Source: Synechococcus sp. PCC 7336 (GTDB lineage: Bacteria > Cyanobacteriota > Cyanobacteriia > Thermostichales > PCC-7336). From it: a DNA stretch of 64,000 nucleotides. The notes beneath the pieces are model-generated. The model searched no databases. It had not been told where the DNA came from and worked only from the letters and a program-made list of their open reading frames with translations. Shown piece by piece: positions 15,567-19,767 of this stretch. The stretch lies in assembly GCF_000332275.1 (NCBI RefSeq), contig NZ_CM001776.1:62001-126000 (forward strand). Reading direction: 5' to 3'. How positions within the stretch are numbered: the stretch's first letter is position 1; each line of letters starts with the position of its first letter. A program made the translations under genes and the position numbers.

Positions 15567-15815
15567 GTGCCTAATCGATATCTCGAAGCAATGAACAATA
15601 CCGGCGTCCGTGCGTTAGCCCGTGCCAAGAGAGCCTGTCGACAGAGCACTGGATTGAAGTGGGTTAAGCTAAAGTCGATCCCTTTAGAAGAGATCTATAG
15701 CGGTACATTAGAGTGTGGCGTTCTTTTCAGATTAAAGGCAGACAATTTTGAGTACCTCGATCGAAGATCTAGTTTAAATGAAAATGCCTCTTTAAGCTCT
15801 ATGGAAATCGCTTGA
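15567..15815 (+). CDS. Small protein of unknown function, first gene of the ATP-grasp operon
   Basis: I do not recognise this 82-residue protein. The frame begins at GTG 15567, and an internal ATG at 15591 (MNNTGVRALARAKRACRQS) is an equally plausible start giving 74 residues. The N-terminal part is basic (ARAKRACRQSTGLKWVKLK), the middle has IYSGTLECGVLFRLKADNFEYL, and the C-terminus is Ser/Asn/Glu rich, ending SSMEIA. There are two Cys and no membrane segment or signal peptide. It ends 12 bases before the ATP-grasp gene, with GAGG in that gap, so the two are almost certainly co-transcribed. It could be a substrate or partner of the ligase; that is inference. Confidence 0.6.
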   Translation: MPNRYLEAMNNTGVRALARAKRACRQSTGLKWVKLKSIPLEEIYSGTLECGVLFRLKADNFEYLDRRSSLNENASLSSMEIA

Positions 15816-15827
15816 GGAAAAATAAAG

Positions 15828-16877
15828 ATGAAAATATGCTTCATTATGTACCCGTGGGAACGTGTAGACCCCGATTCAGACTCGACATTGAGGCTCATTC
15901 ACGAAGCCATATTGAGGGGACATACCGTTGCAATAACCAGCACCCATAACCTCACTGTCCGAAATAATGTTACAGGCTCATTCTGTGATGTTATTGTGCA
16001 GAAATCAAAGGTTAGCAACAATTTCAAGACATTCTATAACACAATTGAATTTCGTCGTTCCCAGTTACCGCTATCGGGGTTTGATGCCATTCTGATGCGC
16101 GACAACCCACCGCTAGACAATCTTGCAATTAACTTTTTAGATTCAGTTCGGTCCGATACATTCATTATGAATGATATCGACGGTTTGAGGCTTGCCAATA
16201 ATAAGCTCTACACTGCTTCTTTTGTGGATCTGGCGCATGAATTTATACCTGTCACTCACGTTTCTAAAAATCGTGACTATCTCGAACGTATGTTTTTCGA
16301 GTCCGATAGTGATAAAATGATCCTCAAACCGCTGACTGGTTATGGCGGTCGAGGTGTGATTGTACTTGAGAAAAGTGCTAAGCATAGTTTCCGCTCCTTG
16401 CTAGATTTTTATATTGGCGGAAATAACAAAGAATCTAGCAGGGAAAATTATGTCATCTTACAGGAATACGTCAGCGGAGCAGAAGATGGAGATGTTCGAA
16501 TTTTAATTCTCAATGGCGAGCCGATCGGAGCGATGCGGCGTATACCTGCTGAAGGAGATGTCCGCTCGAATGTACATGCTGGCGGGACCGTTGTCAAACA
16601 TACACTGACTAAGCACGACAAACAGCTTTGCAAAGAGATTGGACCGAAGTTGGTTCGCGATGGCATCTACTTTACGGGTATTGACGTTATTGGCGGAAAA
16701 TTGATTGAAGTGAACGTCCTCAGTCCTGGCGGTATTACTCGCATCAATAAACTCAATCGAACCCGCTTGCAGGAACTGGTGATTGATTTTGTGGAAAGTG
16801 TCGTCAACTCTAAAGAACTAGCCATCAGGCGTAAAAATGAATTTCGTCAAGCAATCGAAGATGCAAACCTTGGATGA
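15828..16877 (+). CDS. Glutathione-synthetase-like ATP-grasp ligase
   Basis: The 349-residue protein aligns with GshB along its length: a preATP-grasp domain with ICFIMYPWERVDPDSDSTL and DAILMRDNPPLDN, then the ATP-grasp core. NDIDGLRLANNKLYTASF corresponds to the GshB NKP/NEKLF region, MILKPLTGYGGRGVIVLEK is the ATP-binding glycine loop, and GDVRILILNGEPIGAMRRIPAEGDVRSNVHAGG matches the GshB Arg/Gly segment. EVNVLSPGGITRIN supplies the metal ligands. GshB joins glycine to gamma-glutamylcysteine. Here, however, the gene sits with an amidohydrolase/peptidase fusion and not with gshA, so a different amide ligation is likely. It has low HIP1 and higher AT content than its neighbours. Its stop lies inside the next gene. 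Confidence 0.88.
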   Translation: MKICFIMYPWERVDPDSDSTLRLIHEAILRGHTVAITSTHNLTVRNNVTGSFCDVIVQKSKVSNNFKTFYNTIEFRRSQLPLSGFDAILMRDNPPLDNLAINFLDSVRSDTFIMNDIDGLRLANNKLYTASFVDLAHEFIPVTHVSKNRDYLERMFFESDSDKMILKPLTGYGGRGVIVLEKSAKHSFRSLLDFYIGGNNKESSRENYVILQEYVSGAEDGDVRILILNGEPIGAMRRIPAEGDVRSNVHAGGTVVKHTLTKHDKQLCKEIGPKLVRDGIYFTGIDVIGGKLIEVNVLSPGGITRINKLNRTRLQELVIDFVESVVNSKELAIRRKNEFRQAIEDANLG

Positions 16878-18858
16878 ACAACAACTTCTCGATCGCCTAT
16901 CTGCAGGCGAAACTTTTGCAGCCACTTTAGCCGATGGGTCGTTGGACATTTGGGTGCGAGAATACGTGCCATACCTCTGCACAGCCATTCATGCCGGTCA
17001 CCGCTTGCGCCCGGACCTAGAAGAGATTTGTGCGATCGACGAGCAGGAGCGCCTGCGGGAGGAGGACCCATATACCGACACGGCGATCGAGTCTTTTCCG
17101 ATCGCGCTGGTGGCTAGAGACTCTCGCTACGAATACGATCTCAATCGATCGCCGGAAGAATGTCTCTACGAAGTAGCCTGGGGAAAACAGGTTTGGCAAC
17201 AACCCCTCGATGAGGCACAGCGCCAAACTAGCCAAGAGCGGCATTCGCGTTATTATCGCATCCTCGAAGCACTAATTACTCAAATACAGCAGCGCTTTGG
17301 GGGCTGCTTGGCGATCGATGTGCATAGTTACAACTGGCAAATCAGGCAGTACGAAGAGGCTCCGATCTTCAATTTGGGAACAGCTCAACTCAATCTTCGT
17401 CGCTGGTCCAAACTGCTGAAAGTCTTTGAGGAAGGTCTGGGGGCGATTGACTTACCCAATCTGGATACAACAGTAGCTCGCAATCAGGTTTATCGAGGAC
17501 AAGGGTTTCAAGCTAAATTTATCGGAGATCGATTTCCGGTGGCTCCAGTCATCCCGCTCGAAATCAAAAAAGTGTTTATGGATGAAAAAACTGGTGAAGT
17601 TTTTCCCTTAGCGATCGAAAGTCTGCGACAGGGTCTCCATCGAGCTGTGCTAGATACTGCTGCTTATTTTAACCAGTATTTGGGACATTCTAAGCTTCGA
17701 CGACCTGCTGCCCTCTTGTCATCTACAATCGATCCTCTAGTTTTAAAAGTCGATAGAGCGCTGTATCGATTGGCTAAGGATGTAGATACACTCCAGTATG
17801 TCAACCCAATCAATCTTCAGCAGGAAAAGCGCACTTTTCTTGCCCGCAAGCGATACGAGCCTAATTTTCGCTATCGGCAGTTGCGCATGGACCCATATGA
17901 TTTTCGAGAGCAGCTCTATCAACTTCCAGTTTCTCAAATTTCAGATCCGTCCTTGCGAGATCTCTATCGATCTGTTGTGGATAGTTTTGCCATTAAAGTT
18001 GAATTATTAACTCACGTCGGTACGCCTCAATTTCTCTACAACTCTTTACGTTATTATGGCGAGCCCAGCCCGACCGATATTGCGAATGCACACTTTTTGC
18101 TGCATGCTCCTGAAATTCCGGGGTATGAGGAGCAGCCCAGCGAGATAGATGCAGAGATGGCCAAAGTGGAATTCGAACGGGCAGCAAGAGACTTCGGTTT
18201 AAATTGCCAAGTTGCGATCTCGACGCGATTGGTGGCCAATGCAATGGTTGATAACAACCGCAGGCTATTATTAATCAATCGTAACGCCAAGTTGACTCAA
18301 ACAGAGTTAAATGCACTGGTTCATCACGAGTTGGGCGTGCATATGGTTACGACCATGAATGCATTAGAGCAACCCTTAAAGGTTTTCAGACTGGGGCTTC
18401 CAGGCAACACATATACACAGGAAGGGCTTGCTATTCTCGCAGAGTATCTGTCAGGCAATCTCAATCTATCGCGCTTAAAGCAACTTGCCATGCGAGTCTT
18501 GACAGTGAACGTAATGCTTCGAGATATGGACTTTGGATCGATTTTTGATTATTTAAAAGACGAACATAAGCTCTCAGATGATAAGGCTTTTTCTCTGGCT
18601 ACTCGCGTTTTTCGAGGCGGTGGATTTACGAAAGATTATTTATACCTGAGAGGCTTAAAAGATATAGTATCGCTTTACCATGAATGCGATATCAATTCTC
18701 TATTGATTGGCAAAACATCGAGTAGTTTTCTACATACAATCGGCGAGTTGATCGAACGTAGAATATTGCTGTCGCCCAAGCTGCGATCGCAGGCAATCTC
18801 TGACTGTCAACCCCCTCCCAATCCGGTATTAGATTATCTTGTTAGCTCAATACAATAG
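16837..18858 (+). CDS. Fusion: N-formylglutamate amidohydrolase-like + QEGLA (DUF1704) metallopeptidase
   Basis: The 673-residue protein contains two enzymes. Residues 40-220 resemble N-formylglutamate amidohydrolase: AGHRLRPDL, EDPYTDTAI, ARDSRYEYDLNR, the His of QERHSRYYRIL, LAIDVHSYN and PIFNLGT. Residues 290-673 match the family annotated as flavohemoglobin-expression-modulating QEGLA protein (DUF1704). It has HHELGVHMVTTMN (an HExxxH zinc motif, near residue 497) and TYTQEGLAILAEYLSG (third ligand Glu, near 528). The eukaryotic MATCAP tyrosine carboxypeptidases share this HExxxH core. Two starts are possible, ATG 16837 (41-base overlap with the ligase gene) or ATG 16861. No signal peptide is visible, so it is probably cytoplasmic. 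The physiological substrate is unknown. Confidence 0.85.
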   Translation: MNFVKQSKMQTLDEQQLLDRLSAGETFAATLADGSLDIWVREYVPYLCTAIHAGHRLRPDLEEICAIDEQERLREEDPYTDTAIESFPIALVARDSRYEYDLNRSPEECLYEVAWGKQVWQQPLDEAQRQTSQERHSRYYRILEALITQIQQRFGGCLAIDVHSYNWQIRQYEEAPIFNLGTAQLNLRRWSKLLKVFEEGLGAIDLPNLDTTVARNQVYRGQGFQAKFIGDRFPVAPVIPLEIKKVFMDEKTGEVFPLAIESLRQGLHRAVLDTAAYFNQYLGHSKLRRPAALLSSTIDPLVLKVDRALYRLAKDVDTLQYVNPINLQQEKRTFLARKRYEPNFRYRQLRMDPYDFREQLYQLPVSQISDPSLRDLYRSVVDSFAIKVELLTHVGTPQFLYNSLRYYGEPSPTDIANAHFLLHAPEIPGYEEQPSEIDAEMAKVEFERAARDFGLNCQVAISTRLVANAMVDNNRRLLLINRNAKLTQTELNALVHHELGVHMVTTMNALEQPLKVFRLGLPGNTYTQEGLAILAEYLSGNLNLSRLKQLAMRVLTVNVMLRDMDFGSIFDYLKDEHKLSDDKAFSLATRVFRGGGFTKDYLYLRGLKDIVSLYHECDINSLLIGKTSSSFLHTIGELIERRILLSPKLRSQAISDCQPPPNPVLDYLVSSIQ

Positions 18859-18979: not shown

Positions 18980-19174
18980 CTAATTCTCGCCGCGATCGCT
19001 CAACGCCTGAATAGACCGTGCATTACTGTCAACCAATTGCTTTAACTCAGCAATTTCTGTTTTAAACTGCTCAAAAGCGCGCTGGTTCGCCTCCTCGTGC
19101 TCGATCTGCATTTGGGCCAACTGCTGGATTAATCTACCTGCGATCGCAAAATTTTCCCGAATTTCATCGTCCAT
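18980..19174 (-). CDS. Small coiled-coil protein, duplicate 1
   Basis: The 64-residue product MDDEIRENFAIAGRLIQQLA... is predicted to be almost entirely alpha-helical, with heptad spacing of hydrophobic residues (LIQQLAQMQIEHEEANQRAFEQF...). It has no Cys and no membrane segment. A second gene at 19573-19767 encodes the same protein with changes limited to residues 36-52. Homology extends into both flanks, so this is a recent local duplication. The family is unknown to me. A coiled-coil dimer or a regulatory subunit is plausible but not shown. Confidence 0.6.
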   Translation of the reverse strand: MDDEIRENFAIAGRLIQQLAQMQIEHEEANQRAFEQFKTEIAELKQLVDSNARSIQALSDRGEN

Positions 19175-19572: not shown

Positions 19573-19767
19573 CTAATTCTCGCCGCGATCGCTCAACGCC
19601 TGAATAGCCCGAGAATTGCTCTCCACAAGCTGCTCTAATTTCACCACTCGCCGCTCGAACCGTTCAAAAGCACGCTGGTTCGCCTCCTCGTGCTCGATCT
19701 GCATTTGGGCCAACTGCTGAATTAATCTACCTGCGATCGCAAAATTTTCCCGAATTTCATCGTCCAT
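19573..19767 (-). CDS. Small coiled-coil protein, duplicate 2
   Basis: This 64-residue protein is identical to the product of 18980-19174 over the first 35 residues and over the C-terminal QALSDRGEN. It diverges in the middle, where FKTEIAELKQLVDSNARS becomes FERRVVKLEQLVESNSRA. The changes keep the heptad pattern and charge, which suggests the protein is under selection. DNA identity continues beyond both ends of the gene (for example CATGCCGCTGACTCACCTCG upstream of both). It lies 130 bases from pyrH on the same strand, where frr often lies in other genomes. Confidence 0.6.
   Translation of the reverse strand: MDDEIRENFAIAGRLIQQLAQMQIEHEEANQRAFERFERRVVKLEQLVESNSRAIQALSDRGEN

Follow-up and report, generated by a model that had tools for sequence, protein, structure and literature searches.

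Results

The window (the whole stretch of DNA that was analysed, 64,000 nucleotides of Synechococcus sp. PCC 7336) lies within a 5.07-Mb single-contig genome. Profile searches place cbiX and cobA upstream of a gene for an ATP-grasp ligase, followed by a gene for a fusion of an N-formylglutamate-amidohydrolase-like (FGase) domain with a MATCAP (QEGLA) metallopeptidase domain (Table 1). The sequence-only reading had described a three-gene operon made of these two genes and a small open reading frame (ORF) before them; all three ORFs are present where it placed them, and the ligase and the fusion are real and overlapping, but the 82-residue ORF is unsupported as a member. The fusion ORF opens at 16837; in an alignment of 43 relatives M9 (ATG 16861) is a near-invariant column, and we consider this ATG most likely to be the true start. 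The overlap with the ligase is then 17 nt, not 41, in agreement with the overlaps of -17, -20 and -23 in 68 of 80 relative loci. Just downstream of the pair there are two near-identical 64-residue coiled-coil-like ORFs (18980-19174 and 19573-19767, both on the minus strand) with no family match.

Table 1. Features of the locus (window coordinates)
Feature	Position	Strand	Remark
82-codon GTG ORF	15567..15815	+	probably not a component
PRK12458-type GshB-like ATP-grasp ligase	15828..16877	+	349 aa
FGase-MATCAP (QEGLA) fusion	16861..18858	+	665 aa; start ATG 16861 likely
N-formylglutamate-amidohydrolase-like (M14-like) domain of the fusion	16969..17526	+	residues 45-230; PF05013
MATCAP/DUF1704 metallopeptidase domain of the fusion	17842..18840	+	residues 336-668
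Putatively acquired segment	15650..18900		mostly 40-47% GC

The proposed GshB-type ATP-grasp identity of the ligase is borne out by PF02951 (82 bits) and PF02955 (184 bits), and the protein passes the subfamily model NF009110/PRK12458 with 453.3 bits (cut-off 408). With the glutathione synthase equivalogs it scores 237.4 bits for TIGR01380, below the cut-off of 299, and 277.5 bits for NF003573, narrowly above the cut-off of 272. The ATP/Mg catalytic residues K126, K167, D286, E294 and N296 are retained, the GshB N-domain is intact, and the pocket motifs D18, R91, R238-P240, R246-N248 and A251-G253 are kept; instead of the SPTC of four gammaproteobacterial canonical GshBs, the ligase subfamily and the rhizobial enzymes carry a conserved SPGG. 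The best structural match of the ligase model (pLDDT 86.5) is E. coli GshB (1gsa), then RimK, then LysX/ArgX. The parallel drawn earlier with tubulin tyrosine ligase (TTL) is not supported, considering that TTL is absent from the 50 structures nearest to the model; we reject a kinship with TTL beyond the ATP-grasp fold, while the MATCAP homology is real but distant.

A better-scoring canonical GshB is encoded at 3.16 Mb in the window genome, and a separate canonical GshB is found in 22 of the 25 genomes with the operon ligase; the three genomes with this ligase only (L020, L073 and L085) are all draft bins. On account of this paralogy we judge glutathione synthesis unlikely as the sole role of the ligase, and the ligase is probably distinct from the housekeeping enzyme.

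The composition of the fusion, proposed from the sequence, is confirmed by PF05013 (N-formylglutamate amidohydrolase; 80.3 bits, cut-off 28.9), the MATCAP family PF08014 (330 bits, cut-off 27) and the QEGLA model TIGR02421 (378 bits, cut-off 339), and both folds are supported by an AlphaFold model with pLDDT 93.2; the HutG deformylase model TIGR02017 is missed (12.1 bits against 278.75). The N-terminal half of the model matches the N-formylglutamate amidohydrolases 2q7s (TM 0.69-0.70 by target) and 2odf, and the C-terminal half matches human MATCAP 7z5g. The proposed kinship with MATCAP therefore holds in fold and catalytic set, but it is distant (19-20% identity).

The zinc-site motifs of the MATCAP domain are HE498LGVH502 (HExxxH) and QE529GLA, and H497, E498, H502, E529, R590, R593, K599, D600 and Y603 are invariant in 43 sequences. 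The FGase domain has the conserved residues H52, E76, R97, D101, N103, D161 and H163; H52, E76 and D161 are invariant in the same 43 sequences. The zinc histidine H163 is found in all of them except a Vibrio fusion with no adjoining ligase (L011 4974-6965), in which it is lost (H163Y). An alignment built from contigs gives the zinc-site and catalytic residues as invariant in 41 of 41 sequences. In human TMCP1 the aligned counterparts of E498 and E529 are E281 and E316, the mutation of which strongly lowered activity (PMC10499314).

A single scan with the fusion as query, run over bacterial and archaeal contigs, gave 80 loci from other genomes. The ligase stands immediately upstream of the fusion, in the same order, in 78 of them; as for the other two, L019 ends at a contig edge and L087 has no ligase. 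The paired loci span Gammaproteobacteria, Bacteroidota, Desulfobacula and Nitrospirota bins, the genes mostly overlap by 8-23 nt, and the ligases are 59-75% identical to that of the window. Among 274 Gammaproteobacteria (PRK12458-type ligases called at 353 bits or more, canonical GshB reaching at most 244 bits), 12 of the 14 genomes with such a ligase encode MATCAP no further than about 1 kb from it, and 27 of the remaining 260 have any MATCAP gene at all (Fisher p = 1e-9, genomes taken as independent). The survey of co-occurrence that the sequence-only reading had suggested links the two genes; the ligase and the fusion are a widespread conserved functional pair, far beyond chance.

The arrangement varies in a few lineages. 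On rhizobial plasmids FGase, MATCAP and ligase are separate adjacent genes in that order, and the rhizobial FGase aligns with the FGase domain of the fusion (hhalign probability 100, 37% identity). The rhizobial MATCAP proteins (L012 6789-8657 and L013 6759-8645) begin with some 240 extra residues that bear a weak likeness to FGase; these may be a decayed copy of the domain, the intact one being encoded separately. In Thiomicrorhabdus (L087) the fusion lies directly behind rimB, rimK and an AstE/AspA gene, which replace the usual ligase. Many of the 80 loci have a divergent LysR-type regulator gene. A role in anti-phage defence was rejected: none of the three window proteins matches a PADLOC model, and the sole match in a phage collection was partial, with 28% identity.

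The segment that contains the pair has 51-55% GC locally at 16.85-17.45 kb and otherwise mostly the lower values of Table 1, and the DNA on either side has about 55-60%. Few cyanobacteria carry MATCAP: by TIGR02421 it is found in 2 of 59 relatives, the window genome included, and in 5 of 386 genomes of a phylum-wide sample. In quick trees both proteins fall within marine gammaproteobacterial sequences (ligase, 23-row set, SH-aLRT 96; fusion, 5-row set, SH-aLRT 98). Taken together, the trees, the low GC and the rarity in cyanobacteria make it well supported that the pair was horizontally acquired from marine Gammaproteobacteria; the exact donor is not well supported, given the long branches of the window sequences and the use of quick trees.

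The 82-residue ORF has no family match in profile searches and no homologue in 72,556 plasmid records or in any of the 80 loci; a search of 385 further cyanobacterial genomes gave nothing beyond chance (best E 0.01). Its three codon positions hardly differ in GC (0.45/0.45/0.43; the ligase has 0.51/0.35/0.43), shuffling the 342-nt gap yields an open frame of its length in 4.8% of cases, and it straddles a GC step from about 55% to 40%. Being an orphan with no codon-position signal that sits across this step, it is probably not a component of the operon. Its in-frame codon score against the island genes is slightly positive (0.10, with window genes only as the reference), so that it may still be translated. 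We also considered and rejected two origins of the ORF. It is not a DUF413/MaoP remnant, because its own genome has no DUF413, and DUF413 proteins compared with the window by tblastn produced chance matches only; nor is it a repeat or paralogue, there being no copy elsewhere in the genome.

The 80 loci have no small gene in common, and the closest relatives (L016-L018) have no conserved one beside the ligase. In 30 of the 80 the gene just upstream, in the same orientation, is DUF413/MaoP-like, and several of the encoded proteins have very acidic tails; a different, acidic ORF of 80-87 residues lies upstream in seven Colwellia-group loci; the remaining loci have larger upstream genes or none. 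In Photobacterium the DUF413/MaoP-like proteins (L035 4544-4891; similar in L014, L030, L042 and L045) have strongly acidic tails, e.g. YDEDDDSDSDPDLDI, with a divergent LysR gene beyond; it is possible that these tails are a candidate tail substrate.

Discussion

We tentatively propose that the two genes form a make-and-trim module that acts on a glutamate-containing peptide or conjugate, is put to hypo-osmotic use and was horizontally acquired, a reading in which belief and doubt are nearly balanced. The ligase would work on a short peptide or conjugate, probably a gamma-glutamyl or Glu-containing one, turning a carboxylate of it into an acyl phosphate and then joining an amino acid to it. 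The co-translated fusion would cleave the same class of bond that the ligase makes: the MATCAP domain, as a metallocarboxypeptidase, would take off the C-terminal residue, and the FGase domain would hydrolyse an amide of the N-acyl-glutamate type. Between them, ligase and fusion may control how long or how abundant one tagged species is (compare RimK/RimB and poly-glutamate on RpsF), and may be switched on by hypo-osmotic conditions in marine bacteria.

We infer these reactions, the preference for glutamate and the action of both enzymes on one substrate from several circumstances, to which the L087 arrangement belongs. FGases cleave amides of N-acyl glutamate. Human enzymes of the MATCAP family cleave off C-terminal Tyr and Glu and act as deglutamylases on tubulin (PMC10499314). 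RimK and RloC are ATP-grasp enzymes in operons with glutamate-directed peptidases (PMC11957791, PMC12239564), and the Rlo operon, which joins an ATP-grasp enzyme with a protease, governs tolerance of hypo-osmotic conditions (PMC12239564). In RNA-seq of Photobacterium damselae at 1% NaCl (low salinity), the ligase was up 38.4-fold and the fusion 27.5-fold, among the most induced genes (PMC10308900), the tagged genes being equated with L030 by name and order. Near this operon there is a small lysine/aspartate-rich ORF (L030 3077-3247, minus strand); judged from locus-tag order only, it may be A0J47_RS17005, a gene induced 18.6-fold at low salinity.

The logic of ligation and removal put forward in the sequence-only reading is thus retained, given the conserved pair, the RimK-RimB and RloC-RloA precedents and the L087 context; its small-protein substrate is not, for the 82-residue ORF, which has neither relatives nor a coding signal, is absent from all other operons and so fails the test which that reading had set for itself. 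Several points count against the make-and-trim proposal as well. Co-expression in one operon fits sequential steps equally well as opposing ones; the ligase passes NF003573, if narrowly, and keeps the pocket motifs of GshB; RimB and RloA are aspartic peptidases unrelated to MATCAP or FGase; and the link to RimK comes from one locus.

The main rival is a pathway for a thiol or peptide metabolite, in which the ligase makes a glutathione variant or another gamma-glutamyl tripeptide and the hydrolase domains process its precursor or recycle its product, in sequence and with no protein target. We hold it to be rather improbable, yet deserving of serious attention. It agrees with the intact GshB N-domain and pocket and the 1gsa-like fold, with the 80 loci having no conserved protein partner gene, with the LysR-type regulators, and with the polyamine genes induced together with the pair in P. 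damselae (PMC10308900). On the other hand, no gshA-like gene was seen beside the pair, the genomes keep a canonical GshB, and the MATCAP relatives characterised to date target protein tails (PMC10499314).

That the ligase gene is an ordinary glutathione synthase gene and a chance neighbour of the peptidase is quite improbable: the NF003573 score and the three draft genomes with this ligase alone would allow it, but the missed TIGR01380 cut-off, the canonical GshB of the window genome and of most others, and the MATCAP linkage stand against it.

LysW carrier systems consist of an ATP-grasp ligase, a small acidic protein and a carboxypeptidase. Even with this precedent, with LysX/ArgX among the structural neighbours of the ligase and with the acidic upstream products described above, a ligation-removal cycle on a small protein encoded beside the ligase is very hard to credit, considering the state of the 82-residue ORF, the want of a small gene common to all loci, the lack of a conserved one beside the ligase in L016-L018, and the DUF413 tails, which are not conserved.

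To return to the make-and-trim proposal, a close known counterpart is RimK-RimB (rimABK, RpsF polyglutamylation), where an ATP-grasp ligase is co-transcribed with a peptidase that removes its product, and RimK is the second nearest fold to the window ligase. Here, however, the ligase is of GshB type, the place of the aspartic RimB is taken by a MATCAP metallopeptidase and an FGase domain, and RpsF is not indicated as a target; the locus falls outside RimBK, its ligase carrying a GSH-S N-domain and no PF05618 protein being present. The rlo operon of Pseudomonas aeruginosa (RloA protease, RloB, RloC ATP-grasp) likewise combines an ATP-grasp enzyme and a glutamate-directed protease with a hypo-osmotic tie, but RloA is a secreted retropepsin and RloB a membrane protein, and neither is found at the window locus. 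Human MATCAP/TMCP1 and TMCP2 share the fold and the HExxxH...E catalytic set with the fusion, which differs in its low identity, its FGase domain and a bacterial host with no microtubule substrate. GshB has the same fold, ATP/Mg residues and pocket motifs, whereas the window ligase belongs to the distinct PRK12458 subfamily with SPGG for SPTC, coexists with a canonical GshB and is locked to a peptidase gene. The FGase domain has the M14-like fold, the His/Glu zinc-site pattern and the D-x-N-R motif of the HutG family (2q7s), but misses its model and is fused to MATCAP.

Bacterial MATCAP (QEGLA/DUF1704) proteins have so far been annotated only as 'flavohemoglobin expression-modulating', and a literature search, with most subscription papers outside its reach, found no paper linking them with an ATP-grasp ligase. 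The strict pairing with the ligase offers a biochemical setting in which this family can be tested, in marine bacteria that are amenable to genetics and for which an inducing condition is known, and it is relevant to the source of the tubulin-tail carboxypeptidases. It is tempting to go further and to see here a third class of bacterial glutamyl-tagging switch, whose writer would be a ligase of GshB type and whose eraser the bifunctional FGase-MATCAP protein. Salinity would then set the tagging of one cellular peptide or protein tail, and the eukaryotic tubulin-tail carboxypeptidases would derive from such bacterial erasers; we consider this extension unlikely. In one gammaproteobacterial genome (G604:C57:1838-3980) a tandem of two PRK12458-type ligases accompanies a single MATCAP gene.
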